Assembly: GCA_029204225.1 (NCBI GenBank)
Contig: CM055101.1
Coordinates: 42,616,927 to 42,680,926 of the forward strand
Length of the DNA: 64,000 nucleotides
Direction of reading: 5' to 3'
DNA from: Diphasiastrum complanatum
Taxonomy: Eukaryota > Streptophyta > Lycopodiopsida > Lycopodiales > Lycopodiaceae
This document shows, one piece after another, positions 2,096 to 63,554 of the stretch; the stretch's first letter is position 1; each line of letters begins with the position of its first letter. The translations under genes and the position numbers were made by a program. Below the pieces are notes generated by a model. That model was not told the origin of the DNA. It saw nothing but the letters and a program-made list of their open reading frames with translations, and did not search any database.

Positions 2096-2189
<94 letters not shown>
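2096..2189. repeat. (CT)n microsatellite, about 94 bp
   Basis: A nearly uninterrupted CT dinucleotide run preceded by shorter CT-rich stretches from about 2067. It is one of six long CT/GA tracts in the window. Confidence 0.97.
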
Positions 2190-2191
<2 letters not shown>

Positions 2192-10440: not shown

Positions 10441-10448
10441 CAAGGGGT

Positions 10449-10569: not shown

Positions 10570-12601
10570 AGAGAGTGGGAGGAGAGAAAAAGGTGGATGC
10601 ATATTCCACTCATGGAGGTGCTTCCAAAATTCTCACAAAACTTGAGCACTTGCCATTACACATGGGTAAAGCCCTCTTAGAGAGCTCGGGCAACTCATGC
10701 ATCCAAAAGGAATGAAGTTGGATTTTGTTCCATAGGAAGGCCTAGCACAATCATGTCATGTTGTGATAGATGATGGGATGCAAAATCAATTATCTAATCT
10801 CTTATTAAATGCTTAAAATTATTAATTAGGAATTTACTACTCCCATGAGTGATTGTGCTACTTCACAATGCACATCATATGACAATAAGGACTTTAAAAA
10901 AAAAAAGTTTGACCTTCTACAAAATTAAGGGCCTTAAGGAAAAATTCATGCACAAGAACCAACTTAGCCAAAATTTAAAAGTTCTAGCCTAATGGCGTGT
11001 CAATCATAATAGAACTTTGAATGGTACATCCTTCCCAACACCCATGAATGGATGCCAATTGACACAATATTATTAACTCTAACCAAAATGTGAAAATTGA
11101 AAACAATAAAAAGTTATTTATCTATTTTCATTAACATGCTTAGCTTATTGTGCATTTGATTATTGTTTATTTATTGATTAATGCTACTATGTTAATGTAA
11201 AACTTGTCAAGGAGCTCTGCAAGACTTTATAGAATTGCTAGATTTAGTTGCAATGTCATCTCATAGTGTCATATTTGCATTACATCAAAGAAATGCTCAA
11301 CTCAAAAAGGGCTTCCTAAAAATTCCCACATAAGAAATGTTGAATATTTTCCAAGTTAAAGTTTGTGTTATGGGACATTGTGCTCGGACAACTATTTTGA
11401 CTATGGGAATTTATATAGACCAATAAAAAAATTTAACAAACAAATTATATGTATACATTGAAAGCATCGATGACAACTTACAACTCATGGCAGTAGTAAA
11501 TTTCTAAATAGTAAATACAAGCATTTGATAGCAAATGAGAAAATTGATTTTGCATCGCATCATCTATCACAATAAACTTATCAATACACTACAACAACTC
11601 ATGCATTTTTTAGCACTTTTTTGGAGTGTTCTTAATCATTTTTGTGGCTATGTCACAGTGGTCAGCGGCATGACGTCTGGGGTGTTGACTGCCATCAATA
11701 TAAGGGTTGCAATAAGCAGTAGTAAAACACATTACAATTGAACTTAAATAAAGAGGTAACCACCAACAGATATATTGCTATTAATGAAAATTAGCCAAGG
11801 TCGGTATTTACTTCGGTATGTTAAAAAGAGGATGTTTCAAAATCTTTTGAAAAGATATGCTTATCAATACAATGAAATAAATATTTATAAAAAAATAGGG
11901 GCCATACATAGAAGTAAAAACCAAAATCATATACAATAACAATATTATGATTAATTACTCAACAATGGATCATGCATGGTAGCTCTCGTGTCATATGCTA
12001 GTTAATGATTATCAAGTAAACAAGTACAATTGCATGGATGAGCAATACAATTAATAGTATGATAAGTTGTCGTTCATCATTGTGTATCATCTATATTTTA
12101 TCTGCTGCTACATTGATATCCTTTGTTGCATCATGGGACAAATCCACCAAACTGAATAACTCTATCTCCAACTCTATCCACATATCCTCTATCGCTTCGT
12201 TATCATAAATAACACGATCTTTACTAGTTGATGGCGATGGTGACTACAAAAATGATCAAAGGTGTATTGTGCAAATTCAAATCAACAGATAATAACTCAT
12301 CATGAACGATATCATCATCTGCTTGAGAAACATTTCAAAACAGATCATTAACATCATCAACTTGATCATTTCATTTATGTAATGTTGCTGATTGCATGTC
12401 CTCCGCGATAACTGTATCCTCAAATATATTTTTGCTTTGAGAAACAAATTGAATTACATACCACCATTTGGGATCTTAACGATCAGAGTGAAAGACCACC
12501 TGTATAATTATCACCGTACACATTTGCTGACTTGTAAATAGTTTCACACATACAATTTTTGTATAGAACATTAACTAATTGACAAAGAAAGGCATTAATT
12601 A
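10570..12601. other. AT-rich non-coding sequence
   Basis: I see nothing beyond short A/T runs and small chance frames (for example 11535-11741). Confidence 0.5.
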
Positions 12602-20439: not shown

Positions 20440-22345
20440 CTGAAGGTCTAAGTGTAATCGACGTTGTATATCTAAGAAAATCCTCTGGCGACAAGTCGTG
20501 CCTTTCTCCTGTTGATGCTTCCATCTGCATTGTACTTGACTTTGAAAATCCATTTGCAATCAACTACGTTTCTACTGGCAGGTAATTTGACAATTGTCCA
20601 TGTCTTATTCTTGATAAGAGATGAATACTCTTTATCCATAGCTTCTTTCCAGAGATCTGAATTAGGCTGACTAAGTGCCTCTTGGACAGATGTCAATTCC
20701 TGAACAAGATAGGTTGCAGACTCGTCGATAATCCTGATACTTGTAGGCTTGATCTGAAGTAGTGTAGCTGATGAAAATACATTTGGTACTCTAGAAGTAG
20801 AGCTTCTTCCTAAGATCACGAGGTATCTACGCAAAAGCAGTACATCCAAAAACTTGTAGGTTTGATAAAGAAGGTTTGAATGGTGTTTTGTCTGAGAGAC
20901 CTTTAATAGGACATATGTTCTGAATATAGGTTGCTGTTGACACAGCTTCAGCCCAGAAGGACTTCGAAAGTGTCACATGTAATAACATGCACTTTGCCAA
21001 TTCAACTAAGGTTTTGTTCTTTCTCTCAGCAAGACCATTTGATTGAGGCAAATAGGAGGTAATGTATTGTTGCTCAATGGCGTTGTTAAGTCAATACTCC
21101 TTGAATTTGGTGGAGATATATGCTCCCCCGTTATCTGACCTCAATGCTTTGATTCGTTTGTCAGTTTGATTCTCGGCGTGCTCTTTGAATTGTCTGAATT
21201 TGATGAAAGCCTTTGATTCCTGTTTAATAAAATAAATAGCTGTTCTTCTGGAGAATTCGTCAATAAAAGTAATGAAATACTTTGCATCTAACAATGAAGG
21301 AGTTTGCATAGGTCCACATATATCTGTATGAACAACATCTAACAGACCTTTTGTTGCATGCCTATGGTTTGATCTAAAAGGAATCCTAGCCTGCTTTCCA
21401 AAGATGCAACTATGATAGACAGGGAGATCAACCTTACCAGAAGGATAGTCGAGATCAAGAACCATGGATTGTTTGGACATGTTCAAAACCGATGCATAAT
21501 TCAAGTGTCTTAAGCGATGATGCCATAGTAATGCTTTATTGACTAGAATAGAGGTTTTCAAGACTTGACTAACTCAGAATAACAACGTGCCAATCTATAT
21601 AAGTAACCTTGCCTCTTGTTGAGTGCAAGGATCTTATTACTCCTATCAATAATTTTGCAATGATCATATTCAAATTCTACCCTATGACCTAAATCTGTAA
21701 TTTTACTTACTCATAACATATTTGTAGAGAATTTAGGAACATATAAGACCTTTGATAGTAGTTTGAAATGATCATGCTAGAATCACAATCTTACAGTACC
21801 TTTACCTTCAATAGTGTGAGTACTATTGTCACCAAGATGAACAAATTTCTTCGTGTTGTAAGACGTGTAGGAGTTGAAAATCTCACGTTGATTCGTCATG
21901 TGTTGAGTTGCTCCAGAATCCAAAAACCATGAATCATCCAAAAATGCGCTTTGATCTTTGACCATGAATGCGTCTTTGTCCACTTCGACCTGGGGAGATG
22001 ATGAAATTGTGTTTGCTTGTTGATCAGGTTGCTTGGCTGCATTTTGCGCTTGGAGAATTCGGCAATCCTTGATCTCATCGTTATTGCGCTTGCAATACTT
22101 GCAAAACATCTTCTTCTTTGACTGTGGATTTGATGATTGTACTTGACTTTGAGTCAGTTTCTGATTCGTTGCAGCCTTCTTGGAGCTTTTTTGCTTCTGT
22201 CACTTAGAGCCTTTGTTGACATATAGAGCCTGAGAGGAGGAAGTAGACAAAGTGTCTTGACTTCTTCTATTGTCTTCTTGTAGCAACATAGTGATAACTC
22301 TAGTAAGTGTAAAATCTGAGTGTGTGGATATGATCATCACCCAGT
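20440..22345 (-). mobile_element. Copia internal fragment: gag end, protease, integrase, RT start (family A, decayed)
   Basis: On the minus strand the order is: gag end with [15 protein letters not shown]; zinc knuckle CKYCKRNNDEIKDC, whose His is Asp; protease DSGATQHMT; integrase zinc finger with HHRLRHLN and YHSC, whose first Cys is Tyr; integrase core with HTDICGPM and SDNGG; then [13 protein letters not shown] and the RT start ([13 protein letters not shown]). Frameshifts separate the pieces, and part of the integrase-RT linker is missing. The fragment starts inside gag and stops inside RT, with no LTR at either end. Confidence 0.88.
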
Positions 22346-23275
22346 TCTTGATATCATCAACATCTCGATTGTATCCACCACTCAAGATGATATCATCCAC
22401 ATAGATTAGCAAAATGGTAACATCATTTCCTGCAAACCTATAATAAAGTGAATGATCATACTCACTCATAACAAACCTTTGAGAGAGTAAAAAAGTGTTA
22501 AGCCTAGCATACCAACTCCTTGGTGTTGCTTAAGACCATACAAACTCTTTTGTAGAGAACACACATGATTTGGCTTTGTAGATGAAATGTAGCTCTTGGG
22601 TTGCTCCATGTACACTTCCTCCTCAATATCACCATTCAAGAATGTATTTGTAATGTCCAATTTCCATAGATCCCATCCAAAAAGAGTAGCAAGAGAGATG
22701 ATGACCCGAATGCTTACCATCTTTGCCACAGGTGTAGAGGTTTCATCATAGTCAATACCACGTTCTTGTGCATATCCCTTGGCCACTAACCTTGCCTTAT
22801 GCTTATTGATAGATCCATCTTGGTTATTCTTCATCTTGAAGATCCATTTCCATCCAATAGATTTCTTGTCCTTAGGTAACTCCACCAATTTCATAAAGAC
22901 TTATTCTTCCTTTCGGCCACTCCATTTTGTTGAGGTGTCCTTGGAGTTGTGTACTCTCTCTTGATCCCATGCTCATCACAAAAGGCCCTGAACTTGGTTG
23001 AGATATACTCAAACCATTGTCACTGCTCAAGCACTTGATCCTTGTGGAAAATTGGTTCTCCCTTGAACTCTTGAAATTCACAAAAACATCATACACTTCA
23101 TCTTTGCTCTTTAATAGATATACCCAACAATATCTACTAAAATCATCAATGAAAGTTACATACATTTTAGCTCCACTATTGTTAATAATAGTAATTCCAT
23201 GAATATCCAAATGTACAACTTGAAAAGGCATAGCAAATGTGCCTCGAAGCACAATTAGGGACCAACATGGCATGG
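22346..23275 (-). mobile_element. Copia integrase and reverse transcriptase (family B, decayed)
   Basis: This is a different Copia family from 20440-22345. On the minus strand the integrase core reads VTFIDDFSRYCWVYLLKSK and SSDNG. It is followed by RT with GWKWIFKMKNNQDGSI, KARLVAKGYAQERGIDYDET, YGLKQ and the catalytic YVDDI. Frameshifts break it. Immediately after YVDDIILSGG the sequence switches to family-A gag while keeping one open frame (22200-22469). Its own 5' LTR is probably the one at 23934-24749. Confidence 0.85.
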
Positions 23276-23921
23276 CTCAAAATAGGAAATGAAATTTTTT
23301 GTGAAAGTCAAGCTACTTGCAAAAATGAATAAAAGCAAGATAACTTAGACTCTTAAGTTTAGAAATGAGCCAATAGTCTTTTGCTTTCACTTTGGCATGA
23401 TTTAGAAGCAATTTTGAAGGGCTTTGATGTATGTAGATTTCCCTTTCACATTAAGTCTTGGAACTCAAAGACATGAAGAGCTAAAGGTATGGCGCCCACA
23501 AATTGTCAACAATAGGATTTAGAAGAAGTGGTATCAACTACCTTGCTTGTCTGGGATTGTTTTTATTTTTAATCCTCCGATATGAAGTAGAGAGGCTTTT
23601 GTAAAGACAACTTGTGACAACTCCCTCTTATCCTATTGTAATGACATTTTTTTGACCTTTACATCACCTTCTCCCTATATAATCAATCCCTTGCTTTACA
23701 TACTCACTAACAAATAGGTTCTGCCCTATAGAAAGCTAAAAGCAAGGGCTATAAATCGACAAGAAATAAAACAAGAAAAAAAGAATAATGGATAAAAAAA
23801 TTGACCCAAAGCAATCTAGAAATTGAAAAATCAAGAAAACTAGAAACATAACCTTACAAAAGTTAATAAACCTCTAAATCTAATGAGAATCATGAAAAAT
23901 CAGAATGTGTATAGAGCTTAT
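23276..23921 (-). mobile_element. 5' internal region of family-B Copia element
   Basis: This lies between the primer-binding site at 23922 and the integrase. I cannot read a gag frame; it is either decayed beyond recognition or partly deleted. Confidence 0.4.
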
Positions 23922-27620: not shown

Positions 27621-27801
27621 CGAAGTCACAGATAGGATTCATGCCCAATTTGTATAATACAATTTAGTTTTGGAATCTGTAATTGAGAAGGTGCTAGATT
27701 GAAGCTGTAGATTGACGAGATTTAGTTTGCTGAAGATCGAAGCTAGTTGGATCGTTGAAAGATTGCAAGAATTTCAAAAGATTTATAAAGAGCAGCCTGT
27801 G

Positions 27802-28353
27802 ATGTTGCGCATAGCACAACGGGAGCTTTTCCGTGCTCGTTTCTCATCCTGGGATCCTAAGCCCGGCCTTCGATTACTTCTCAGTTGTCCTGCAACTACT
27901 TCAAGCGACTACTTCCAGTCCAAGAGTGCATCCATCAACTTGTTTAGGCATCCGTTAGGCAGCAGCCAACGTCAACATTGGTGCGGATACGCATCAGCTC
28001 CTCAGGTACATATTGCCGAGGCAGAAAATACTGATACGTCAACAGAGGTTGAAAAACTGAGTGCATTAAAGCCAACAACAAAGGAGCAAAAGCCTCGTGT
28101 GGTGGTGCTTGGCTCTGGTTGGGCAGGATGCAGACTCATGAAGGATCTTGATACACGATTGTATGATTTGGTGTGCATTTCTCCGCGTAATCACATGGTC
28201 TTCACTCCACTTTTAGCTTCTACATGTGTAGGAACACTTGAATTCAGATCGGTCGCAGAGCCCGTGCGTACCATTCAGCCAGCCCTGTCGAAATCTCCCA
28301 ATTCCCACTTTTTCCTCGCAAACTGTACAAACATTGATGCAGCAAATCACGAG
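27802..28353 (+). CDS. NDA: NDA exon 1 (residues 1-184)
   Basis: It encodes the targeting sequence ([16 protein letters not shown]) and the FAD-binding fold with GSGWAG, then [16 protein letters not shown] and VAEPVR. It ends ...NHE at donor GAG/GTGAGA in phase 0. Confidence 0.93.
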
Positions 28354-31300
28354 GTGAGACTAAAGCTGAACTTAACCTCAAAGATAACAAAATTTGTGTA
28401 TGCTAATGCTATTAGACAAACGTCGTGTTATTGAAGCTATATGGTTCAGCACTACGTAATTAGGTCAGATTACTATCATAGTTTGAATTCAATGCCTGGT
28501 TTTGATTTAATCACGAAAGGGCTTGTAGTTGAAGCAAGTAGGCGTTAGGCGGCTGCCTGAATACTAAAACTTGGAAACACGTCCATTATGAGGCAAAGTC
28601 AAATAAGAGGATTCAGAAATTTTAAGTAATATGATAAATCAAGGCGATTTCATATTTCTTTGATTGGGAAAAAAAAGTTTGATTCGATCTCTTTTTGTGA
28701 AACTGAAGATACTGAATCCAAAGAGGGATTCGAAAAATCTAAGTCTGTAGCCCTTTGTGGGCACGTTTCCTTTGTAAATTTCTTGTGTGAGAGAATCACA
28801 TGTTAGTATACCATATTGTTCAGAGTCCCAGACATTCCAGGGCCAGAATGTTATGTTCTGAATGTATGGAACAGAACTCATTCTGTGCACTCTGAACCAA
28901 ATGCCACTGGAATGAACTATCGAAGCTCAGGACTCCACACAATTTCGAACTTTACTAGCCCATAGTTTTGGAGGGATGTACTTCCTACTCACTGAATCAT
29001 CATAGATTTGAGCATGATAATCATCCATATTTTTAATTTTAAAATTGCTTCTCGGTACTGCGAGATATATTGGATTAGGGACTTGTCCATTACTGTTCTT
29101 TCCCAGGCTCTATCAAGTTCATTTTCTGGTAGGAATTCTCTTAGGAAAGCTTCTTCAAAGGCTTTCCATGACCGGGGAGTCTGCCCAGTCGCGTGGAGAT
29201 TTAACCACCACTTATAGGCCATGGGCCCTAAGGAAAGACTGGCCTCAATTGCCTGCAAATGGTCAGGGGTCTGTTTAAGAGCATGAATGTTCTTCCATTT
29301 GCTGAGGAAGGTTTGTAGAATATCTGCATTTCTATCCTTCTCTTCTCCAATAAAAGTAGGAGGCTTTAAATCTTTAAAGACACTGGGGTGAGACCGCAAA
29401 GTCTCACCCGAAACTGATGGAAGTGGAGAAGGGGACAACTGAAAAGTGGAGGGAAGGCTTCCTTTCGCGGAACTCAAAATCAAATCTTTGAGTTCAGCGA
29501 ACGAGTCGTCCACACTGGACTTGAAATTGGCTAATGCCAACTTCAGTTCATCCACTTCTGTTACCAAATGGAAAAACTGCTCCTTGGTAACCAATTCGTC
29601 GAGTTCTCCGGCGAACTGTTCTTGTTCTTCCATTTCCATAGGTTCTTTCCTTTTACTGTAAGCCAAGGCTTCTGTTTCAAGCTCGTCGATGCCTCTCTCC
29701 GAGGGTTGATCAGGTCCCTGAGGAGTGGTCATTTTCAGAACTGAAAGAGAGGTACCTTAACTTTTGATAAAAAAAAAGTCAGAAAGACTAATTTACAACT
29801 GTACAAGGGAAGGAAAGAAAACTTAGCTCTTTCTGAGAACTGTACTTCCATAGAGAGAATCAAGAAAAGCCCTCTCAGCTCTTCCTCAACTGCTTTCAGA
29901 CCTGTGGTTCTGAGAAATTCGAATAGTAGGCGGAAAAAAGTGCAAAAAGATTTGAAATTTTTGCTATCCCCCTTCGCTGGTCTGACAGCATCCCAATTTG
30001 TCCACAAAAAGGCAAATTTGAAGTCCAAAAGCACCGCTGAATTCTGAAATTTCAGAAGCCCCTTGCTCGCTGATCTGGCAGAAATACTATTGCTCCAAAT
30101 CTTTTTAGTTGGGGCCCAAAAATTTGTCTAAAATCTGGATTTTCAGAAGCACTGGCAGCGCTGACCCTGCTCTTCCCTTTTGGCTTCAAACTCGCCGAGA
30201 ACTACTGAATTTTCCTCTGGAAACCAGATGCCGGTCTCTGGATTTACAGCGATGGAGGTGCTTGCTGCTGGAAAATGTGTAGAAAACTCTCTGAACTTTG
30301 TGATGAACAGCTGCCTTTCCAGCGAGCTACCTACACATGGAATCTGACTCCTTACTTCTGATTTCTATTCCCTTTGAAATCTAAGAATTACTCTCTGAAA
30401 ACGAAGAATAGATATCTGTTTTCTACAGCGATGGACCTGTCTCAGAAATCTAACTCATATTCCAACTGAAAGGAAGATGATTCAATGGAGATTTTCACAG
30501 TAGAAAGCTACTCCTCCAGCGCTGGATCTGTCTCTCTTATTTACCAAAGTTCTAAGAGTTTCTAAGCACTCTCTCTACTTTCTCCCTGATGCTACTTAGC
30601 TCCCAAAGATGGAGATGGCTCTGATACCAGTGTAATAAGTCCTAACACCACAGTAGGGCAAACACTAACTGATCCACCCAACCTTGCCTACTCCCTGATA
30701 TAGAGTAAGCCCCTCCTAGCCCAGTGTGAGGATTGATAGCATGCAACTGCCAAGTGTCGGTCCCGTGTCACTGACGTGGCCGATTTGTTGGGACCCAATT
30801 GGGGGCCCTGTCCTGCTGACAGGGTCCCTAGACTGTGTTAGGCCCGCCATAGCTATGGACCGTGCTGGGGCACACTACTCACACTGTCTTGCCCTGTTGG
30901 TGGTGTACGCTGGACACGACCCTGACTGTGGTATCTGACCTATCTGTGTTCTCTAGGGTTCGGCACTGGTTACGAGCTCGTAACACTAATCTCTCCTTTC
31001 GAGATCAAATCTCGAGTATGATGGTACTTTAGAGGTATATGCTTTGTCTTTGAATGGAAGACAGGATCTTGGGACAGATATATGGCACTTTGAGAATCCA
31101 TCATCATCATCGTGCATGGTTCTCCTTGTGATATGCCAATTGGCTCCAACATCATCTGCAACCCAACTACCTCGTTCGCCATCTTTGAAGCTGCAACATA
31201 TTCAACTTCGCATGAGGATTGAGCTACCAAGGTTTGCTTTTTGCATATCCAGCTGATTGCTGCTCCGCACGCTATTGAACATCCTCCTGTCGCGGACTTG

Positions 31301-34300
31301 CTGTCATCTTTGCAGCTCGCCTAGCTTGCATCATTGTAGTGGTGCAGCTCGAATCCTTTTCCTTCGTTGTCTGCTTCGTAGGTTAATCCCATATTTTGGG
31401 TACCCTTCAAATATTGTAGGATTCATTTTGCCATTTGCCAATGTGCCATGCCAAGATTGGAAGAGAATTGGCTTAAAGCATAGACAAAGAAAGCCAAATC
31501 GGGTCTGGTACAAATTGTAAGGTACATCAGACTACCGATCAGGTTTTGGTAGGGTATACCTTCCATCTTCTGTTTTTCTTCCTCTGTTTTCGGGCAATCC
31601 TGCTTTGTCAATTTGGCTCCAGCTATCATTGGTGTGGCTTTTTGTTTGCAGTCCATCATTCGATATTGCTTCAACACTTTTCTAGCGTACTCTGACTGAC
31701 TCAGATGCATTTCTCCTTTTATTCGATCTCTTCTGATCTCCAGCCCAAGGCATTTTGTTGCTTCTCCCAGATCTGTGATTTCATAATATTCAGAAATCTG
31801 ACTCTTTCTGTCCTTGATTAGCATCAAGCAGTTTCCTATCATAAGAGAATCATCCACGAAAATAGTCAGAATCACAAAATCTTGTCCTACTCTCTTTATG
31901 TAGACATTATAGTCTGGTTGTGTAGGATTGAAGTCTAGAGATTTCAGAAGACTGTCGAGCTTCTTGTACCAAGCTCGTGATGCCTGTTTCAGACCATAAA
32001 TGCATCTCTGCAACCGACAGACATATTGTCGATTGTCGGGGTCTTCAAATCCTTCAGGCTGCTTCATGAAGATTTCTTCCTCTAGATCTCTGTGGAGAAA
32101 GGCTATCTTTACATCAATCTGGTGAACTTTCAGATTGTGTTATGTAGCGTATGCAAGGAGCAGTCGAATGCTTGTCATCTTCACCATTGGCGAATATGTG
32201 TCAAAATAATCGACTCCGTACCTAATATGAGCTTTTGCATATATTTCACCCTAGGATTAAAAACATGAAATGGAATCAGTTTCTCAACCTTGAACAGTCC
32301 CTATCACTTACAATTTTTCCAAGACCAGATTTGAAATTTAACCAAAAAAAAAAAAAAATTCAATTTTAACTCTGTATCTGGGGGTACCCCACTCCAGACG
32401 TTAAAATGTCATTGCGGTATTAAACTGCCGTCAATTTGTGTGTATTAGGTATAATAGAATTTGTGGTTCCTTCAATCTATCAAAAGTATTCATAATAAGG
32501 AAACAAGTTAACTTTAGTGAAAATGTTGTGACCGAATCTGATTGAACGAAAACCACAGTGTGGTCATTTCAGTAATCTAAGCCCATTCCATAGATATTGT
32601 AAAAAAACTGAAATCTTGAATTATCAAAAAATTGGATTCTAAACAAATTTTATGTTATTCATTTCTAGCCAAAAACCCTAAAAAACAAGCAAATTTTGAC
32701 CAAAACCATAGCCTAGAACTGTAAATCTTGCAAAATTCCGGTATGCAATCATTAATTCAGCAATTAATGAAATCCTAACCGAAGGTACATGGAAATTCAG
32801 ATCTACCATAAGTTATGAGATATACAAGCAAATTGACAAAAACCGTCATAAACTGGCTACAATCGACAATCACCCATATTGCTATGGAGAAGCCAATATC
32901 TGATGGATCTTAGCAACGTGCAAGTGGAAATACTGAGAGAACACCCACTTGGAAGCTTGTTCACCACCAGGAAGAGAAAACAAAGATCTCCACCAAAGAG
33001 TCAACTAAAAGCTTGATAGCTCCAATTCCTTCGATCTTCGTAAGCCTTGCTTTGATATCACTGTAAGGAGAAGCACCTCCAAGATCTTTCTTACAAGACA
33101 AACACAAAGAAATGGCAGTGGAGCCAATCCACTCAACCATGCAGATCTACTGATCAATCTCCAGTAGCATCACCCCCGTGCCAAAGGATAGCATGTAGGT
33201 GTAGAGAGAGGAACCCGACAATGAAATCTCACAACAAGAATGGGAGTAGGGCAAGTTTCTCCTAGAAGAAATAGCCCTTGCTTTACTTGTGCATGTGCCC
33301 ATGCAAGCATACAATATTCCTTATTACTATTGATACTCTACACCATGCCCATAGTCGTCCTAACCCGTGCAATAGCTCACATGCCATAAGATGTGTGACT
33401 GGGTTCTCACAAGGTTATTAATTGCATTTTTGGCCTTGTTTGGAATTACGAGGCGTAATCAATAATCTCGAGTATTGGAGTACCGTGTATCCAAGTCTAG
33501 GATTATGTCAAATCCTATATACAGGACGTGGACGTAACAATTTGAAATGTAAAAAGTTTCAAGATTGGGAATAAAGTCTCAATAGGAAGGACATGGAAAT
33601 TTTAAGTTCACTTTTGCATCACACTAATGAAGTGCTTGGACAAGTGTTTATGGAAGCCTGACACATTGTGGCTTTTGATTTCTTTCTTAATGGATCCCAC
33701 ATGGGTATGAGTTGTGTCTTGGCCTTGAGCATGTGTTAGAACTTAGAATGGTTGAAAGAATGTGATGCTATGATATTGGAGCCACCTTATAGTGTAGGAT
33801 GATCCATGTTATGTTGAAGTGAGCATGAAAGTTTTGTGAGTTGAAATGAATGCCAAAATAAGAATTTCATAGTGATTAATATCTGTGAATTTTTTTATTG
33901 CCATTTAAAAAATCTAGTTGACGAGTTTTTCTAGTGGGACAAAAGTTTATATTCTTAAAATCAACAACAAAGTTATGATGGAAATTATGGGCTTGATTTG
34001 GAACTTTTATTGTAAAGCAATATTTACCTGTAAAGATAAAATGGGCATTCCTCTTTGCCAAATGTTCTTCTAACTATTAAATGAAAATGAATCTGCAGGA
34101 TGAGTTACAATAGTTGGTTAGATTATCTGGTTAAAGAAAGATTTTAGAGATAATTTACGTTTGACAAAAAGTGTTTTCATTTTATTTTTCTTCAAGATTA
34201 GAACTACCATAATTTGAACAATGAATCTTTTGGTTGACTCTAGGTGTATTGTGAAGCTGTGGCGGAGAATCCAGACAAGGATGATGTTCAAAAGTTGGCT

Positions 34301-37300
34301 TTCAAGGTCGCTTACGACAAGCTAATTATTGCATCGGGTGCACAAGCTCTCACTTTTGGGATACATGGCGTAAAAGATCATGCCATTTTCCTTCGTGAAG
34401 TCTCCCATGCACGCGATATACGAGGGAAATTATTGCAGAATTTGATGTTATCTGAGATTCCTGGTACGTTGCTTACCCAATATTTTGTGCCTTGTTATAA
34501 ATTTCTATTATTTTCAATGTATGTAAACCTCAATATCCTTGGCTGAGACAGAAAGAAAGAAAGCTTTATTAACGTTTTAAAAACGTACATAATGTTGGAA
34601 ATCAAAGTGCCAAGATCCTTCTAACATTCAATCTCCATATACAAGAAGAAGAAGAAGAAGAAGAGGAGGGAGAGGGTTAGGCGCCCTCAAGGAGAGAGAA
34701 AGTAGTAGCAATGCTTGAAAGGGAATGAATTACAAATGAACAAAGAGTAAATATAAATAGGCCTTCCAAGGGCCTAGACTCTTCCAAACTCTAAGTTCTA
34801 GAACCTTCCAAGACCCACTACTAATTATAGGGCATCCCCAAAATTCAAGACAGGGTCCCTTAACATAATTAGACTTTACTTGGACCCACGAATTACTACT
34901 GGACCAAAATTGGGTCCAACTCAACTAAAACTGACTTAACATGGTCTAAATAATAAACCTAACCCATGGTTACACAAGTCTCGACCTTTTGGGTCAAAGT
35001 AACCTATGGGAAACTAACATTATCATTTATTACTTCTAACACCTTCCTTAAATGATAATGTAAAAACATAACATGACATGAAGTATGAAAAATTGCAACA
35101 AATGCAAAGTGTTGCATGCTGCTCAAAACTCCATGTACCGAAAAAGAAAAGATGTAGCTTCCTGTCCAAGCTTAATGCCGCCAAAAAAAACTTCAGCTTG
35201 AAGTAGTCGAAGTAGCCGAAATCTCAGCCCCAATCATGCCCGATGTAGAAGAGATGTAGAATACGAAGTGCGGTAGCATCAAGTCGAGGAGTGAAGACAA
35301 GCATGCTCCATCCAAAGTAGGTAACCAAAAAACCAGCCACAAGCCGAAATATGGATTTGCAATCCATCAATGGTTCCCACATAATTCCATAAGTCTTCTT
35401 ACCACAAGAAACATAAAGAAGAGTATGATACTCTTTTACCATCACATCCTCCCAAATCTTACTATCAAGGATCTGCTCACCAACACTAGGTAAGAAAACA
35501 CCGTCATCATAAGAAGTAAGCATCAAAACATGAAAATCAGCATAAGGTACTGATTTTGGTGAGGCATGTGTGTTTCCTCCAAGGTAAAAAGATGCTTTGC
35601 TATCTCGCAAAGACTTGGACAACCAACAAGAGGCTGTAGCAGGCTGTCCAACAGCCACAAAATCACCAACACTTTGCTGTCCAAAGTGTTCCAAATGTGG
35701 ACCTTGCTGTCCAAAAACCTTCCGCAGGCTGTTCCCGATGCATAATAGGATGCTCACGATGTAACATAGGTTGAAAATGATCAATAAACCATGGCTAAAT
35801 CTGGTGTTCACCATTTTCAAGAAAAAAACCAACAGCTTGCCACTTTGAACACCCAAAAAATCCAGCAACACGCCACTTTGAACCAATGTACTAATTGACA
35901 TGATTTTTTCCCCTCCTCCATTAGTACAAAATGGCTTCAAAGATTGTGTGATTTCAGCCTTTTCCAAAACATTAACTTGAGAAGCTTGCTCATAAAGTTC
36001 TTCACTAATGCATCCATCATTTGCAACAAATGGCTCAAGAGAAGAAGAATGCTTTACCATACCAACATTCCGATGCAAACTTGTACTTGTAGAAAGACAA
36101 TGATCAAACTTTGCATGACTTTGCTCTTCTACCTTCAAAGAGATTGAAGTAGAGAGGAGAAAGCATGATGATGAATCCTTTATTCGGTACATCTTTAAAA
36201 GTGTTTCCCAAGCACTTTTAGAGGTCTTGCAAAATCTCAAATGATATAAGATAGATCTTGTTACCGATAAAATCTTGATCATCACGTCGATGCAAAATCT
36301 CAACTAACAACTCCATGAAGAATAGTTGGTGCCATCCAACATATCTTCGCCCGAACAAGTACGAATTGCTCCCAAATCTCTTGCCATAAGAACCAGCCAA
36401 GAAGATAAACTTTTTCAAACCCTAAATGTGCCCTAAAAGACACAAAAACCAGCAAGTATCAAATCTGACAAATCAGCACCGGAATGTGTTGAAACCACAC
36501 ATTAGATGGATGTAGGAACTCGCCCTCCTACAAGCCTCGTGTGCTGAGAATTTCAACCTGAAATTGCATTACAAACTCAAAAAACCAGCAAGCAAAGAAT
36601 TAGGTTAGCCTCCAACAAAGCTTTTTCTGGAACCCTTCTTTCTTGCCAAAAAGTGTGAACAATACACACACGGATAGGGCTGTTGCAACACCCTACAAAT
36701 GGTAATATGCTGTCCAATTTTCAGCCTCGGAATGTGATCGGATCATCACAAAAAAATTAACACCTTCTGCCACACCTGGAAACAAGCAAAAAGAAGCGGA
36801 TCTTCACTTTGTAAAATCAGCAAGGGTGTCAATTTTTCAGCCAAATCAGAAGAATAGAAATTGCTTGTAGATGGGCGCCCTCCTGCAAAGGAGCAAATCT
36901 GAAAAATAGGGCAGCAGCGGACCAACAGAAGTAGGATAAACCTACACGGATGTGGGCGACCTAAAAGAAGCCCCAAAGAAGATAATTAATGGCGCCTTCT
37001 TGCAACCTGAAAAATCAGCAAACAACAACCTGATTTTTGGGCGCCCAAAATCCTGTTATCTTCTTTGATGTGTGGCGCCCTCCTGCAAAACGGAAAAGAG
37101 TCAAAAAATGGATCTTCACTCCAAAAAATCAGCCAAGGTGCTGAATTTTTGTGATCCCTAAGTGAAGATGATCTCTTTTGGTAGGGCGCCCTGAATCAAG
37201 CATAGAAGATCCATGGCTTTGATACCATGTAGGAAATCAAAGTGCCAAGATCCTTCTAACATTCAATCTCCATATACAAGAAGAAAAAGAAGAAGAAGAG

Positions 37301-40300
37301 GAGGGAGAGGGTTAGGCGCCCTCAAGGAGAGAGAAAGTAGTAGCAATGCTTGAAAGGGAATGAATTACAAATGAACAAAGAGTAAATATAAATAGGCCTT
37401 CCAAGGGCCTAGACTCTTCCAAACTCTAAGTTCTAGAACCTTCCAAGACCCACTACTAATTATAGGGCATCCCCAAAAGTCAAGACAGGGTCCCTTAACA
37501 TAATTAGACTTTACTTGGACCCACGAATTACTACTGGACCAAAATTGGGTCCAACTCAACTAAAACTGACTTAACATGGTCTAAATAATAAACCTAACCC
37601 ATGGTTACGCAAGTCTCGACCTTTTGGGTCAAAGTAACCTATGGGAAACTAACATTATCATTTATTACTTCTAACACATAACACTTAAGTATGGTCTAGT
37701 TTATGAAGTGTAAAACATCTTTATATGAAACAATAGCCAAACACATGAGAGAGAACACAAGTGATGGAACTCCAACTATGTCCCATTGCATTATGAGGTA
37801 GGGCGCCAGCCTACATCTTTAGTTTCTCTAGTCTATGTGAAAAGCTAAAGACATAAAATAAATAGCTAAAGACAAAAAGCCAATTGCTATAATTATTACC
37901 TATATTGGGTAAAGACCCAAGATGTATTTCTAAGTGGTAAAACCAAATCCTACTCTAGAAGTAGTGCACCCACTTACATGTATGACTAAAAATCGAATTT
38001 ACTATAAATAGTAATGGCCCCTATAATAGCACACAGGCATGGCCCATTAATCCTAATTAGCACACAGGCATGGCCCATTAATCCTAATTAGTCCTAAATG
38101 ATAACATTAGAGGTACTAATGTGAACATTAACTCTAAAACTCCCCCTTAATGTTTACACTGTCAAGAATTATGTATAACAAAAGTATGCATATGTATTCT
38201 CCATGTAATGATTCCGATGTAGAATCCATAATCAACTCTTATCTCAATGTCTTCATTACTCGATGTAGAACTTTCTTTGTATGTCGATGTAGAATTTTTT
38301 CATATGCCGATCCTTTTTCTTATGAACCTGCTTCATATGACTTCCCAGTGTCTTGCTTTAGTCTTCATATCACTTAGGGTATATGTGTGACCACCATGAG
38401 TACAACATATCACCCAATTCCTTGACTTCCTTTGAATCAAAGAACTTTGACTCCCTCTGAATCAAATTATGTGAACATGATAACTTTTGCCTTAACCTTG
38501 AGAACTTTGCGTGAAGATTGACTCCCTTGGTCCCTTTGAACATCTTTCAAGCTATTACCACAAAGGATCTCACCAACATTCATAGAGAAAATGTAATCTT
38601 CTTTGATTACTTTAACACCATCATGACAACTATAAGCAGGAAATAGATCTTCAAATGTCATCATCAAATCTCATACATCAACACCCACGTTAGAAACCTG
38701 TACTTCATAAGTAGTTGGCTCCACTTGTGTTGATTCCTTGAATATTTCAACTCTCCCAGTACTCTCATAAGTTACCACTTGTGGTGAACTTGATGGACTT
38801 TGGTTGAACTACTCCCCTTGGATGTACACTTCATGTTTGCATTCCAACCACTTTTTCCAAATAGAATAGAATATTATCCATAAACCAAACCAAATATGCA
38901 AGTAAAAGAGCATCCCCAATAGAAAGATAAAGGTATACAATACTTCCTCAGACAAAGTAACTGATACTCCCCTTCAAATACTTTCTCACACAAAGTACTT
39001 GACATTATCTTTTCCATGGAATCTCCTACCTCTATCTCACACATAGAGTCACTTGCACCAAACAACTTTCCAACCTAGAAAGCATTTCATCATGATATCT
39101 ATTTATCCTGACACAATGTCATATGCAAACTTCCCAACTGGTGTGCGTCCATCTTCAACCATGTTGTTTTTTGTGAGGCTAAACAACAACTTGTACTGTT
39201 GATTTTCAACGGCTAATCAACAACCTCGGCTTCCAAATCTTATAACAGAATCTACCACATGACAGAACATGCACTTGGATAGATTTTAGAACTTTTCTCC
39301 AACTCAAAACAAAATTGATCTCAACCACCACAGGAACAATCAACTATGACTTGGATAGTATCCAGGAATTACATGACAACCACAACAAGCAATCACTTTG
39401 ATTACTCATAAATCTGAAGTGATACTAGTTTAGATAGACAAGAAAGTTTCTACAACATAACCAAGTTAATATGACTTGAATAGAAACCAAACTGATACAA
39501 CATAGAATGTCGAACACACAGCTTGCCACACCTTGTCACTTTGTAACAACGAACTTATCATTTGCCACCATGATAAGAAACTGTGAAAACATCCTCTTCA
39601 ATATCGTTTAGTGATGATGCTAGATGGGTTTGAGGATAGGATGGACATGGAGTTCAACAGAAGGAGAGTAATACAAGAAGACAGACGCAAGATTAGCTCA
39701 CCTCAAGACGAAGTACTAATCTTAGAACCTCTGAAGTTTACCTCCCTTTAGTATCAAACTTTGGCTATCTGCCTCAGTAGCCAGGTTCCTCTTCCAGCGA
39801 ACCAGTTCAGATCTACCTTCAACTCAGTGATTAGATTTCAGACAGTCTAGTGATCTGATTCAGGCAGCTACTTGTTGGCCTAGCAAACAGTCCAGCGAAC
39901 AGAATAGATCTGATTTCAGTGAACAGATCAGATCTGTCTCAACAAACAGGCAGTGAACAAGACTTGTCTTCCAGCTATCTGATATGACTTTCAGCAATCT
40001 GATCTGCTGTTTTCCAGTGATCTGACCTACTGTTTACGAACTATTCCAGCGATCTTCCTTTTGATCAGTAGCGAATAATTCTAGAAATGACCTGTAGATT
40101 TGCGACCTCCAACAGCAACAAACTGATCTGCAAACAACATTCATATCTGATCCTAAAATCTGAGGGAGATTCCATAATCTCCTCCTTGCAGCTCCGCTCC
40201 TCCTTGTAGCACTAGATCTTCTCACAAAGCTGGCACCGTTCTGAATGAAGATCAAAATTGAGAGCTGGCTAGCTGCTTTTCTCCTTGAAGATGATGGCCA

Positions 40301-45100: not shown

Positions 45101-48100
45101 GGATAAAATGGGTGGAAGAGAAGAGGAGAAATGGGGGGCAGGAAATAAAAAAAGCTTTATTAATGTCTTTTCCATGCCAAAAGGCATACAAGACGAAAGA
45201 TACAATGTCCAGTATGTGGTAACCATGGGAGCGTATAAAACAACTCCAAAACAATAACTAAAAAAAAAACATGTGCATCTAATTGTAATCTAATGTGATC
45301 ATCTCCCACTACTGTGGAAGAAGGATGTAATGGGGGCTGCTATTGGTTGTATGTCCAGGCTCATTGTTGATGTCGTTGAAGAGGTCATTGATGAGAGAGG
45401 TGTCTCCTCATGGTAGGATATGTGGCTATCACGACAACAGGAGAGATGCGTTGTCGCTGGTCTCTATGTCAAGAAGTGTCATCATTGTCACTATCATCTA
45501 TCTCTAGATCAATCTGGGGTCTTCTACGAGAGAAGAAGGATGTAATCTGGAGCTATGTGTCGGAGTGACTCGGTTGAATTGGCTGATAGACATCGTGTCG
45601 TAGTAGAAACAACGAGGATCCTCGTATGCTATCATGGACCGTAGTGTAATCAGTGTATGACGCAATAGGCAACAGTATCTCCCTATGATCTCATAATAGA
45701 CTAGGCATCTGAATAAAACAAGATCCTCAGACTTCACCTCAAACAAAGAATATATCTGGCAAATCCTCTCCTCTCTGGGATACCTTGGAAGCGTCCAGTC
45801 TCAATAGCCAACTGATGTGAGGAGATTCGGAGTTGTCCCAATAGAATCTAAGATTGTGAGATAATCCTGAATCAAGATAAGGTGGTAAAATTGGAGCCCC
45901 ACTGCATCTAACTCTAAATAGTGAGTCTGGTTTGACCCCTAGTTGGCCCTTCCATGCTTGATTAAAATATGTTCTCTATAAGAAGTGTATGATATAATCA
46001 TGGGTTGCTCGATGGAAGATTAGTGATCAATGACAAGGACCGGATGGATGCCAGCGGATCACCAGGCAACTGGCGATCGCAATTGACGACCTAATTTCTT
46101 AGTATAAATAGTTGTTCATTTTCGTACATATTTAATCAATCAAAAATCAGAATTATCATAAGCGTTTGAATAGTTAGTTCTCTCTCTCTCAAGCCTGCGA
46201 GCTTGAACACTCCTGAGCATTCTAGCTCACTACTTAGAGTTGTTTTAGAGATTGCTATTGCGCTATTGCTCATCAGCATTGCGCGCATTAATTCAGACTT
46301 TCATATTAGCCGCTCAGAGATAGCATAGAGTACACGGCTTCGATCCGTAACCTATTGTACTCAATTATTTCTGTTTCATTTTGAATCAATACTACTCCTT
46401 ATTGCGTTCAGTTTCGTCTCGGACTATATGCGTTTCTGTATTTCTTCGCGACTAATTATTTGTCTGATAATTTTCGATGCTTAATCGTTTGGCTACGTAA
46501 TCACTGTAGTACTGACGATTTCAAAGTTAGTTACTATAAGTTCAAATGTGATTTTTATCACTGTTGTCTTGTTTGAAATTGATAGGCGTAGTCATGTATT
46601 GGAAAGATGAAGATAGTTTATTCCGCCATGCACGAAAGGTTTTCTTTCTAGACACACGAATTATTTTCATTCGTTTCTTTTCGAGCTAGACCTATCTTCT
46701 GCACATACCACTTTCCGACATGGTATCAGAGCGAAATCATTATTCTTTATCTGATTCCAATATGATATTAGAGCGAAAGCTCTAATACTTCATATCTTTC
46801 GCGATATCAAGTTGATATCATACTCTTCAGTTCTTTTCAACCTTTTTGTATCAGAGAATTGATTTCTTATTGTTGGCATTACTACTTCTTAGCGTCATCG
46901 ATACAATCGACAGACTAAGTTCCAGACGGATTCTCAAAGTAAAGCCGGTCTTATCGCAGACAAGCTGAATGGATCAAATTATCATTTGTGGAAATTTAAG
47001 ATGAAGACCTTGTTAATCGCCAACGAATTATGGGATGTTGTCACAGGTATAGAAGTAAAACCTGAAGACGACGACTCAAAGTCGAAATCGAAGGATGGTA
47101 AAGCTTTTGTGCTTATTATCCTCAATATATCAGATATACAGATTGGACACATAGCTGAAGCTAAAACGTCAAAAGACGTTTGGGACATTTTGAACTCACT
47201 ATATGACGTGAGGGACGTAACTACTAAGTTACATTTACGAAGGAGATTCTTCACATTCAAAATGTCTAGTGGTGATTCTCTTCAGAGTCACATTAACCAG
47301 TTTAAGAATCTTTTGCAATAGATGGCCGTTGTTGGATCAGTCATAGACGATCAAGACGCAATTATGACATTGCTTTCAAGCTTGCCCTCTACATATGAGA
47401 ACTGGGTGATGATCATATCGACACACTCAGATTTAACTCTTACTAGAGTTATCACTATGTTGCTACAAGAAGACAATAGAAGAAGTCAAGACACTTTGTC
47501 TACTTCTTCCTCTCAAGCTCTATTTTTCAACAAAGGCTTGAAGCGACAGAAGCAGAAAAGCTTCAAGAAGGCTGCAACGAATCAGAAACAGACTCAAGGT
47601 CAAGAACAATCATCGAATCCACAGTCGAAGAAGAAGATGTTTTGCAGGTATTGCAAGCGCAATAACCATGAGATCAAGGATTGCCGAATTCTTCAAGCGA
47701 AGAACGCAGCCAAGCAACGTGATCAACAAGCAAACACAGTCTCATCATCTCCCCAGGTCGAAGTGGACGAAGGCACATTCATGGTCAAAGATCAAAGCGC
47801 ATTTTTGGATGATTCATGGTTTCTGGATTCTGGAGCAACTCAACATATGACCAATCAACGTGAGATCTTCAACTCCTGCACTCCTTACAACACGAAGAAA
47901 TTTGTTCATCTTGGTGACAATAGTACTCACACTATTGAAGGTGAAGGAACTGTAAGATTGCGATCCAGCATGATCAATTTAAATTACTATCAAAGGTTTT
48001 ATATGTTCCTAAACTCTCTACAAATCTGTTATCAGTGAGTAGAATTACAGATTCAGGTCATAAGGTAGAATTCAAATCTGATCAATGCAGAATTATTGAT

Positions 48101-51100
48101 AGGAGTGATAAGATCCTTGCACTCGGCAAAGAGGCAGGGTTACTTATATAGATTGGCACACTGTTATTCTGAGTCTAGTCAAGCCTTGAAAACCTTTGTT
48201 CTAGTCAAGAAAGCATTATTATGGCATCATCGCTTAGGACACGTGAATTATGCATCTATTTTGAACATGGCCAAACATTCCATGGTTCTTGATCTCGACT
48301 ATCCTTCTGGTAAGGTCGATCTCCCTGTCTGTCATAGCTGCATCTTTGGAAAGCAGGCTAGGATTCCTTTTAGATCAAACCATATGCATGCAGCAAAAGG
48401 TCTGTTAGATGTTGTTCATACAGATATATGTGGACCTATGCAAACTCCGTCACTGCTAAATGCAAAGTACTTCATTACCTTTATTGACGAATTCTCCAGA
48501 AGAACAGTTGTTTATCTCATTAAACAAAAATTAGAGGCTTTCATCAAATTTAGACAATTCAAAGAGCGTGTTGAGAATCAAACTGGCCAACGAATCAAAG
48601 CACTGAGGTCAGATAACGGGGGAGAATAAATCTCCAACGAATTCAAGGACTATTGCCTTAACAACGGCATTGAGCAACAATACATCACTTCCTATTCGCC
48701 TCAGTCAAATGGTCTTGCTGAGAGAAAGAACATAACCTTAGTTGAATCGGCAAAGTGCATGTTATCACACGCAACACTTCCGAAATCCTTCTGGGCTGAA
48801 GCTATTTCAACAGCAACTTATATTCAGAACAGATGTCCTACTAAAGGCCTCTCAGACAAAACACCATTCGAAGTTTGGACAGGTACCATTTATCAAACTT
48901 ACGAGTTTTTGGACGTACTGCTTTTGCGCAGATACCTTGTGATCTCAGGAAGAAGCTCGACTTCCAGAGTATCAAGTGTGTTTTCATCAGCTACACTACT
49001 TCAGATCAAGCCTACAAGTTGTTCGATCCCATCGAGTCAAAGATATTCACTAGCCGGGATGTCATCTTCATCAAAGATCAGTTTCAAGACCTCAAAGGAA
49101 AGGGCAGTCCCCATGTAGCCGACCTGTCAGATTCTCCTGACGCTTTGAACTTTCCAGTTCGACTATTCCCATTGAAGGTCCAAGCTCTTCTACTTTCGAC
49201 GAACAACGAATGAACGGTGGATCAGAAGATGATGATGTTGCAGTTCAGCAACTACAGTATGATAGAAACGATCAACTTCCTGAATTACCCAGAAGATCTT
49301 CAAGGACTAGCAGACCACCCAACTGGTATATTGACGAGTCTGCAGCCTATCTTGTTCAGAAATCGACGTTTGTCCAAGAGGCACTCAGTCAGCCTGACTC
49401 AGATCTCTGGAAAGAAGCTATGGATAAAGAGTATTTATTTCTTATCAAGAACCAGACGTGGACAGTTGTCGAATTACCTGCTAGCAGAAACATAGTTGAT
49501 TGCAAATGGATTTTCAAAGTCAAGTACAACGCAGATGGAAGCATCAACAGAAGAAAAGCACGACTAGTAGCCAGAGGTTTTTCTCAGGTATGAAACGTCG
49601 ATTACACTGAGACTTTCAGTCCAGTAGTCAAGCATTCTTCTATTCGACTTTTGCTATCATTTGCCGCTGCAGCAGATTTGGAAATACATCATATGGATGT
49701 ACAGGCAGCATATCTCAATGGAGTTATCGAAGAAGACATTTACATGTTGCAACCCGAAGGTTATATTATTGAGGGTAAGAACAATCATGTTTGTAAACTC
49801 CATAAGGCACTTTATGGCTTGAAGCAATCTACTCGAGCATGGTTTCAAAGGATCAATACTTTCCTCATTGATCACGGTTTTACACCTAGCTATTCATATT
49901 CAAACATTTACTTCAAAGCAGTGCAGTAGTCTTTTATCATTATCACATTATACGTGGACGATACATTGCTTTTCAGCAACAGTATTGATCTGATAAAAGA
50001 GGAGAAGACAATGCTATCTTCCGAATTCAGCATGACTGATCTGGGCGAAGCTCATTTTTGCCTTGGTATACAAATCCACAGAGACAGAAAACAAAAGTTG
50101 ATCTACATTACACAACAGAGGTACATCTACAACATGTTAGTCAGATATAATCTGATCAATTGCAAGTCAGCTCTCTCACCAATGGAACCAGGGCTCAAAT
50201 TGTCAAAGGACCAGTGTTCCTAAACAATTCATGAGAAGCAACAGATGCGTGAGTATCCTTACCATTCTATTATAGGATCTCTTATGTACGCCATGATCTG
50301 TACTAGGCCAGACATAGCTTTTGCAGTCAGCTCTCTCAGTCAGTTTATGACTAATCCATATCAGAGTCATGAGATATCTTCGAGCTACTATGGACTTTTG
50401 CATTTGTTATGGAGCAGTCGGCAACGACAAACTCAATTTACTCAGTGGTCACACAGATGCGAGTTGGGTAGGAGATGTAGACACTCGTAAATCTACTTCC
50501 GGATTTACATTCTTCCTCAACAATGGTCCAATTTCTTGGAACAGTCACAAGCAATCTTCAATAGCTCTATCTTCCACTGAATCAGAGTATATCGCAGCCT
50601 CTCAAGCTACAAAGGAAGCAATTTGGTTGAGGAACTTACTCTCAGATACAATATGCTCCGACGACATTATTTTTGTGATAATCAAAGTGCCATTGCTTTA
50701 TCAGCCAACCCTAGATTTCATTCCAAGAGTAAGCACATTGAACTGAAGTATCATTTTGTCAGAAGCAAAGTTCTCAACGAAGAGGTCAGATTGCAGTACT
50801 GTAAAACGACTAACCTTTTCCCTTTTTGAGTTTCATACACCCGTTTCTTCCGACGGAGGGCATGATGGAAAGATCGACGAGCTGCAGGAAGAAGATGTGT
50901 GTTATGCAATCTAGCTTGGGTGACTTGGACACAACCTATCGCGCTTGTGAACAATATTTAGACTTTCCATGATAGTTGTACATTAAACATTTGTAACTAT
51001 TTTAAATTACTGAATGGGCTCTGCCCATGGTGACCATTGTAATTATGTTGTAACTAGTCGAGAGTTGTGCTTTAGCTTTTTGGCATGTTGTATTGGGTCA

Positions 51101-63135: not shown

Positions 63136-63554
63136 ATGTATCTATAGGAAAACGAGAGTCAAGGCACCAAGATCTAGCTATCAATCAATCTCCACAAGAC
63201 ACGAGAGAAGAGGCTGGGCACCCTCCTCTAAGAGAGAGAGAGAAAAAAAAAACACCACCACAAGTAATGGAAAGCAATGCTTAGCCAAAACTGAAAAATG
63301 TGACACAATAAGCCAGTATGTACTATACCTACTTACTGAATGTAGGGCACTCCCAAAAGTCAAGATAGGGCCCTTAAATCAAATTAGACCTCTAAGGACT
63401 CACGAGTCAATACATGATTAAAATTGGATCCATCACAAATTAAGACAAATTCAACATGGCTTAAATAACTAAATACCCATGGTTACACAAATCTAGACCT
63501 TTTGGGTCAAAGTAACCTATGGATTAACTTTAGCATAGTCATTTATTTTTAACA
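63136..63554 (-). repeat. 3' LTR related to the non-autonomous element's LTR
   Basis: About 419 bp. Its order matches the LTR at 34593-35041: CACCAAGATC, CAATCTCCA, GGGCACCCTC, TAGGGCACTCCCAAAAG, AACATGG.TTAAATAA, ACCTTTTGGGTCAAAGTAAC. On the minus strand it is preceded by the polypurine TTTAAGGAGTG. It is much more diverged than the two LTRs at 34.6-37.7 kb are from each other. Confidence 0.75.

Follow-up and report, generated by a model that had tools for sequence, protein, structure and literature searches.

The stretch of Diphasiastrum complanatum DNA that we analysed (64,000 nucleotides, hereafter the window) contains an LTR element of 3,084 bp at positions 34593-37676, the sense strand of which is the minus strand. 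In sense orientation its 5' LTR occupies 37228-37676 and its 3' LTR 34593-35041, both on the minus strand and 449 bp long, and on realignment all 449 bases aligned without an indel and with 4 mismatches, the number of differences that a preliminary description of this DNA had counted; the youth that it read from these differences stands. The perfect target-site duplication that it reported, CATAA, was present on both flanks (34588-34592 and 37677-37681). The primer site and polypurine tract (PPT) were likewise located, both on the minus strand: the primer-site-like TGGTATCAAAGCC lies directly 3' of the 5' LTR, with the primer-binding site given as TGGTATCAAAGC (37216-37227), which we take to be of the initiator-tRNA-Met type, and the PPT AAGGAAGG (35042-35049) lies directly before the 3' LTR. 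Eighteen of 22 non-redundant other copies carry TGGTATCAGAGCCATGGATC at the primer site. Judged by eye, the sense-strand CCTATTTATA in U3 (34753-34762, minus strand) is presumably a TATA-like box. With near-identical LTRs, a 5-bp target duplication, a primer site and a PPT, the insertion is an LTR retrotransposon. A search of the assembly with its left flank returned no second full-length match, and no empty site or second haplotype. A LOB-domain gene, of a plant-specific group, agrees with a plant host.

Read in the sense direction on the minus strand, the interior begins with a 5' leader (36388-37215) of diverged repeats containing five GGCGCC palindromes (36874, 36991, 37040, 37074 and 37185; one more lies in the 5' LTR at 37315); pol-bearing Copia relatives have a homologous leader. 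There follow a Gag N-terminus that runs from its ATG for 27 codons and then meets a stop (36304-36387), akin to the Gag start of those relatives, and a 359-codon open frame (35224-36303) in which a Gag fragment (36049-36273), an integrase-to-RT linker (35503-35721) and the first residues of a Copia reverse transcriptase (35341-35541) share one reading frame. A pre-PPT stretch (35042-35130) is again homologous to the relatives (64% over 97 aligned positions, E 0.002). Protein comparison scores for Gag, linker and RT start exceeded those of every shuffle, at 107 for the linker (best of 500 shuffles, 49) and at 67 and 49 for the RT start (best of 200 shuffles, 49, and best of 500 shuffles, 45, respectively). 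The order of leader, Gag start, Gag, a weak integrase stretch, linker, RT start and pre-PPT region is colinear with the pol-bearing relatives. Together with the homology to copia-type Gag, linker and RVT_2 RT, and with Pfam domains in the relative's pieces, this colinearity identifies the interior as what internal deletions have left of a Ty1/copia element.

The only copia-type Pfam match in the window copy was Retrotran_gag_2, which scored 16.6 bits where the cut-off is 27, and none of six minus-strand open frames had a Pfam match above its curated cut-off. Neither protease nor RNase H could be detected in the interior, nor could the greater part of integrase or of RT; a candidate RNase H remnant was rejected since no score exceeded those of shuffles, and neither the Pfam scan nor the frame-wise protein comparisons contained an intact pol. 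The preliminary description had held that no pol is recognisable here, which is right as to intact pol and to anything above Pfam cut-offs, but the linker and RT-start remnants are detectable and the interior is not featureless, so that the origin of the element can be named from its Copia gag-pol remnants. The element is non-autonomous, since none of protease, integrase, RT and RNase H is complete, as judged from the window copy, a Pfam scan of long frames in two other copies, and the same interior of about 2.2 kb in 25 of 30 leader loci.

In the 1.745-Gb Diphasiastrum complanatum assembly, tags from the interior and the LTR (up to 3 mismatches in 40) gave 721 and 1,556 matches, respectively, against 0 for reversed controls; the element is thus not single-copy, and both refuting conditions named in the preliminary description, single-copy status and an intact pol between the LTRs, failed. 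Perfect 5-bp target duplications, the other check proposed, were found by a strict script in 12 of 20 sampled copies, which represent 11 independent duplications because two of the 12 share one site. LTR divergence was 0.008-0.030 in the 18 pairs, out of 20, whose alignment spanned 300 bases or more. For the leader search 30 loci were cut out, including the window copy and near-identical duplicates, and 28 of them aligned at 95-100% identity; the compared copies are the best-scoring ones rather than a random sample.

At its far end the window holds part of an old pol-bearing Copia relative (63159-64000, minus strand), of which we see the 3' end, an LTR with about 77% identity in its U3 half followed by RNase H, before it runs past the window as L061. 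A wider search for such relatives listed 150 scored integrase matches, from 73,627 first-look candidates, with open frames of up to 973 codons; the sample was chosen by similarity to L061, and 12 of the 150 listed matches were looked at. The PPT AAGGAGGG was found in 8 of these 12, as was the AAGGAGGG/TGTTAGAAAT junction, and TGGTATCA(A/G)AGC lay directly after the 5' LTR in 4 of 6. Leaders are homologous between the deleted family and the relatives, 5 of 6 of which carry GGCGCC. LTR divergence was 0.009-0.030 in five relatives (one measured from 167 bases only), a range so like that of the deleted family that the two groups were mobile at the same time. The relatives (L061, L082-L099) thus have the primer site, PPT, LTR ends, GGCGCC-bearing leader modules, Gag start and age in common with the family, but they possess integrase, RT and RNase H, and the U3 half of the LTR is only 77-82% identical (8 of 12). 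With these cis-acting parts in common and of similar age, they are likely helpers.

Very probably, then, the window element is a recently inserted member of a high-copy, non-autonomous LTR family that descends from a Ty1/copia element through internal deletions and whose RNA would be packaged and integrated by a pol-bearing relative. The family retains its putative cis-acting parts, namely promoter-bearing LTRs, primer site, leader, PPT and LTR ends; protease and RNase H are gone, as are the greater parts of integrase and RT. The LTR would drive RNA synthesis, the RNA would enter particles formed by the relative's Gag, reverse transcription would start from a tRNA primer, and the relative's integrase would insert the copy and generate the 5-bp target duplication. 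The leader palindromes may have a part in RNA pairing or in packaging. The earlier suggestion that the element borrowed the machinery of another is supported by the lack of intact pol, the many copies and the independent target duplications; as regards mobilisation as a parasite in trans, the sequences show shared cis-acting parts and equal age. A single plant genome thus offers hundreds of similar deleted copies beside equal-aged pol-bearing relatives with shared cis-acting parts, a pair that allows one to ask which leader and LTR features suffice for mobilisation in trans.

It is quite possible, if not the reading we favour, that mobilisation in trans depended on some other helper. It could belong to a Copia family whose LTR matches, be it closer, rarer or extinct, or to another Copia lineage. 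This alternative overlaps with the preferred explanation, in which we infer who the helper was. A helper closer than the sampled relatives may exist because U3 identity to them is only 77-82% and a BLAST of the LTR outside the U3 half against their LTRs gave no match, and a sample built on L061 with 12 of 150 listed matches viewed could have missed it. On the other hand, a narrow test for a hybrid pattern of RNase H side, PPT and LTR junction (up to 1 mismatch) gave 0 matches, and the relatives already sampled equal the family in age and share its primer site, PPT, LTR ends and leader modules. One LTR pair 6.2 kb apart on C1, the single pair fetched for its wider spacing, was discarded as a helper, being a non-autonomous copy with a nested insertion.

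The open frame raises the question of whether a fusion of Gag fragment, linker and RT start has a role of its own, for instance as a Gag fragment joining or poisoning helper particles. With two Markov orders, none of 3,000 composition-matched shuffles per order reached its length of 359 codons. A private stop breaks the frame in the window copy, several other copies join it to the Gag start, and in four (L033, L039, L046 and L048) a frame of 386-387 codons is open from its ATG. Among the 50 changes common to at least 2 of 20 copies no stop occurs, where about 2.6 are expected. Against a protein role, substitutions stand at the neutral expectation (77 synonymous changes with 78 expected, 222 non-synonymous with 215 expected; 9 stops against 14.8, one-sided P 0.05), and we rejected amino-acid constraint on the frame accordingly. 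Among changes confined to one copy 12 are stops, with 9.8 expected, changes common to at least 5 copies show no synonymous excess (7 against 7.4), and the three codon positions vary about equally. The Gag match is moreover a fragment under the Pfam cut-off (16.4-17.0 bits against 27, covering 36-50 of 172 profile positions, including two copies with the long open frame). Comparison of the frame with solved structures gave weak unrelated matches only (best E 0.021). We regard a role for the 386-387-codon protein as unlikely.

The leader palindromes invite a bolder proposal, that of a tuned parasite in which a leader shared with the helper, its GGCGCC array set in repeated modules, would act as a multivalent dimerisation and packaging signal pairing both RNAs, with the fusion frame that several copies keep open supplying a Gag fragment that interferes with the helper or joins its particles; we consider this improbable as well. 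Selection on the palindromes among copies was tried and rejected, their CpG being kept in 94 of 100 site-by-copy cells, no better than at 9 of 11 other leader CpGs. A kissing-loop reading is unsupported by the fold models, because palindromes folded singly were not placed consistently in hairpin loops and 4 of the 6 pair with another palindrome in the whole-leader model. Our literature search found no paper joining dimer initiation, packaging signal and plant retrotransposon.

It is very improbable that the family spread chiefly because one dead element was duplicated as DNA, in segments or in tandem. A tandem LTR-interior array does exist on C17, where three leader matches lie 2,785 bp apart (L048-L050), and L037 and L041 have one flank in common, but most sampled copies have distinct flanks, the 28 LTR loci include, besides the 11 independent target duplications among 20 copies, 6 different solo LTRs flanked by 5-bp duplications, and each copy's two LTRs differ by about 1-3%. 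Finally, relics of deletion are common in plant genomes, but deletion of an autonomous Copia element after insertion at the window site alone is next to impossible and already contradicted, since the same deleted interior runs end to end in the 25 of 30 leader loci (one with a gap of about 90 bp; L034, L035, L043, L054 and L058 lack one end), and the deletion therefore predates amplification.

As a type the element is ordinary, a genomic parasite of a known kind, if a well-formed one, and it is best read as a non-autonomous, LARD-like Copia derivative that was probably mobilised in trans. A search of a plasmid collection returned no match, a result without bearing on plant repeats. LARDs presumably move in trans, and classical ones measure several kilobases; the present family is smaller, and what lies between its LTRs can be recognised as a deleted Copia gag-pol that includes an open fusion frame. 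It resembles them in keeping its LTRs, lacking coding domains above curated cut-offs and exceeding 2 kb. The Inpactor rule for LARDs given in PMC6022998 (no domain, length at least 2 kb) describes it at 3,084 bp with a sub-threshold Gag match only. TRIMs, in the same source, are likewise non-autonomous with LTRs and no coding domains, but shorter than 2 kb, a limit that 3,084 bp with 449-bp LTRs exceeds. TR-GAGs, as defined there, carry a Gag domain, optionally a protease and no other domain; the family is similarly non-autonomous, with a Gag-derived frame and no pol enzymes, but its Gag is a fragment fused to the linker and RT start and falls below cut-off in two copies that retain the long open frame as well. 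BARE2 of barley, according to PMC3735527, is a Copia parasite without Gag expression, through a conserved deletion removing the start codon, which retains dimerisation and packaging signals and whose RNA is packaged into BARE1 particles. Relative to a BARE2-type element, which lacks Gag and retains pol, our family has additionally lost nearly all of pol, the RT start and weak integrase stretch being all that is left. Domain-based pipelines would give the label LARD to a Copia derivative of this kind, which has no complete coding domain; frame-wise comparison against relatives in the same genome nevertheless revealed its parent lineage.

The element and coordinates of the preliminary description, an LTR retrotransposon at 34593-37676, proved exact. 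In its reading direction, the minus strand, it is bounded by LTRs of 449 bp each (34593-35041 and 37228-37676) that differ by 4 mismatches and 0 gaps across the full 449-bp alignment, and CATAA is present at both flanks. In sense orientation the 5' LTR terminates in TTTCCTACA and is immediately followed by TGGTATCAAAGCC, which we take to be an initiator-tRNA-Met-type primer site, and AAGGAAGG immediately precedes the 3' LTR. In 18 of 22 non-redundant other copies the interior begins with the 20 bases TGGTATCAGAGCCATGGATC. Taking 1.3e-8 substitutions per site per year, a rate that may not be that of the host, the 4/449 of the window copy would correspond to about 0.3 million years.

The expectation of a family was borne out across the assembly (1.745 Gb, 5,176 contigs), where a 40-base leader tag gave 721 matches at up to 3 mismatches and an LTR tag gave 1,556; both reversed controls gave 0. 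The leader tag is present unaltered in 18 of 20 aligned copies, and every site in 18 sampled stretches of pol-bearing relatives differs from it by 17 or more mismatches. The assembly looks in part like retained alternative haplotypes, unplaced contigs sharing both an insertion and its flanks with a chromosome locus (L005/L006, L013/L018, L014/L019, L023/L024 and L027/L028), and because chromosome loci are repeated on some contigs, distinct copies are fewer than the tag counts. In the similarity searches the best 40 of 1,273 leader candidates and the best 40 of 1,621 LTR candidates were scored, so that the copies compared are the nearest ones. Of 30 leader loci cut out, a set that includes the window copy as well as seven near-identical duplicates, 25 hold the full end-to-end interior (in L051 with a gap of some 90 bp) and five lack one interior end (L034, L035, L043, L054, L058); 28 align at 95-100% identity, L054 (91%) and L058 (93%) being lower because of foreign ends. 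With the far LTR fetched for 20 of these copies, a strict script found intact target duplications, as identical 5-bp flanks, in 12, or 11 independent cases since L037 and L041 have one site in common; the other eight were excluded by a truncated LTR, a ragged alignment end or a mismatch. The two LTRs of a copy diverged by 0.008-0.030 in the 18 pairs in which 300 or more bases aligned, and solo LTRs with 5-bp duplications made up 7 of 28 LTR loci (L003-L030), 6 of them distinct. On C17, leader matches at 3644887, 3647672 and 3650457 (L048-L050) form a tandem array; the interiors cut out at all three are identical and follow one another at 2,785-bp intervals, so adjacent units have one LTR in common, and the array either arose by tandem expansion not long ago or is an artefact of assembly. 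On C1 a family copy is interrupted by a foreign insertion of about 3.5 kb (L103, about 1214-4762) with a frame resembling, by eye, the BED-type zinc finger of a hAT-like DNA transposon; the two parts of the interrupted copy overlap by 9 bases, as expected of a target duplication.

Across six minus-strand open frames of the element, the sole copia-type Pfam match was to Retrotran_gag_2, covering a fragment of Gag and scoring 16.6 bits where the cut-off is 27. An open frame of 359 codons (35224-36303, minus strand) was matched in openness by 0 of 1,000 shuffles of the interior and by 0 of 3,000 shuffles with the frame's own composition at each of two Markov orders. Against Copia pieces from elsewhere in the window, its Gag fragment (36049-36273, minus) and a reverse transcriptase start (35341-35541, minus) each exceeded all 200 shuffles. 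The earlier statement that the interior has no recognisable RT thus stands for a working enzyme but not for a remnant. An old Copia relative at 63.2-64 kb carries an LTR about 77% identical in the U3 half, adjoined by RNase H (both relevant frames above all 300 shuffles). Its locus, L061, 8 kb fetched around and past the window end, bears many stops and contains gag, a zinc-knuckle-like stretch judged by eye, integrase, linker, RT and RNase H; of seven pieces searched with Pfam, four scored above cut-off (gag, rve and two for RVT_2), one below it (Pol_BBD), and two had no match. The 359-codon frame scored 68 against the L061 Gag (best of 500 shuffles 60), 107 against the linker (49) and 49 against the RT start (45), and not above shuffles against the remaining 11 of 14 pieces. 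Compared as DNA, the interior and the pol-bearing relatives are colinear: in sense coordinates of the interior, 1-650 matches in the leader, 839-919 in the Gag start, 975-1059 in Gag, 1282-1348 weakly in integrase (E 6e-4), 1451-1559 in the linker, 1506-1809 from the linker to the RT start and 2098-2186 in a stretch before the polypurine tract (E 0.002). The element is thus a Copia derivative with internal deletions.

Four copies (L033, L039, L046, L048) retain a frame of 386-387 codons from an ATG that spans the Gag fragment, linker and RT start and whose first part in L033 includes DGTNYSSWS; in the window copy a stop, absent from all 22 other copies, ends the frame after 27 codons. Against these 22, distinct changes in the frame numbered 77 synonymous, 222 non-synonymous and 9 stops (expected 78, 215 and 14.8), counts near expectation and thus without detectable constraint. 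When changes in the frame were sorted by frequency, leaving out the two most truncated copies, the common ones showed no synonymous excess (7 versus 7.4 expected in at least 5 copies; 10 versus 6.7 in 2-4 copies). Stops numbered 12 among single-copy changes (9.8 expected) and 0 among 50 shared changes (about 2.6 expected), an absence that leaves a weak case for possible constraint.

The L061 integrase piece gave 150 scored matches, its own included, among 73,627 first-look candidates (82-100% identity; longest open frame 973 codons). From 12 such pol-bearing elements we inspected twelve 3'-end stretches and six 5'-end stretches. At the 3' end, an LTR matched the U3 half of the family's LTR at 77-82% in 8 of 12, and the AAGGAGGG/TGTTAGAAAT junction was present in 8 of 12. 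At the 5' end the LTR matched in 5 of 6, GGCGCC lay within the leader of 5, and TGGTATCA(A/G)AGC followed the LTR, with GGCGCC 40 bases on, in 4. Those four have a Gag start, MAKESEAIGS...GTNYSLW (with an early stop in L095), that is plainly akin to that of the family. LTR divergence in five pol-bearing elements was 0.009-0.030 (one from 167 bases only), similar to that of the parasite; together with the shared LTR, junction, leader and Gag-start features, this makes them helper candidates of fitting age and kind. A narrow search found no helper with an LTR closely matching the family.

All five GGCGCC palindromes of the interior fall inside 36874-37190 (shuffled interiors average 0.1, maximum 2 in 1,000), within a leader that also contains diverged repeats, and each LTR has one more. 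Leaders of pol-bearing elements align with the family leader and carry similar modules; 2 of the 5 palindromes are exact in three of four such leaders and 1 of 5 in the fourth, where 6-8% of leader hexamers are kept overall, and the other three are not kept. Among family copies, retention of the palindromes does not exceed that of most other CpGs in the leader, and a fold model predicts 4 of 6 paired with another palindrome and not exposed as loops. For Ty1, RNA dimerisation via kissing loops close to the 5' end is reported (PMC5454406), and BARE2 reportedly retains dimerisation and packaging signals (PMC3735527); a putative packaging or dimerisation role for the leader palindromes is a reasonable guess. 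The palindromic repeats of Sireviruses are of another motif and occupy the LTR and the region preceding the envelope gene (PMC2829016).

By the rules in PMC6022998, where a LARD is at least 2 kb with no domain above cut-off, the element would be filed as a LARD. It belongs to an already known kind. The definitions of TR-GAG, TRIM and BARE2, when applied, did not describe it.

The element lies antisense within an intron of a gene bearing Pyr_redox_2 exons (27703-28434 and 34244-34546), and further downstream lie type-II NADH-dehydrogenase-like exons, located by motif. The exons of this type-II NAD(P)H dehydrogenase-like gene extend across more than 30 kb (27703-60400) with retroelements between. 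Part of the exon preceding the element has 72% matches at C9:25045756-25045989 and C2012:1889-2122, and the left flank (613 bases) has no second full-length match in the assembly and five partial ones. Other Copia families are represented, through RVT_2 and gag matches, at 20472-23276, 30970-32139 and 46893-50746; in the open frames of the last, inspection by eye also picked out protease, integrase and RNase H. An open frame with a Retrotrans_gag (PF03732) match lies between two exons of one gene (28989-29756, minus), long open frames overlap on both strands at 9662-10715 together with five GGCGCC sites, and about 350 bp past the element a 31-bp unit is perfectly duplicated in tandem (38027-38088).
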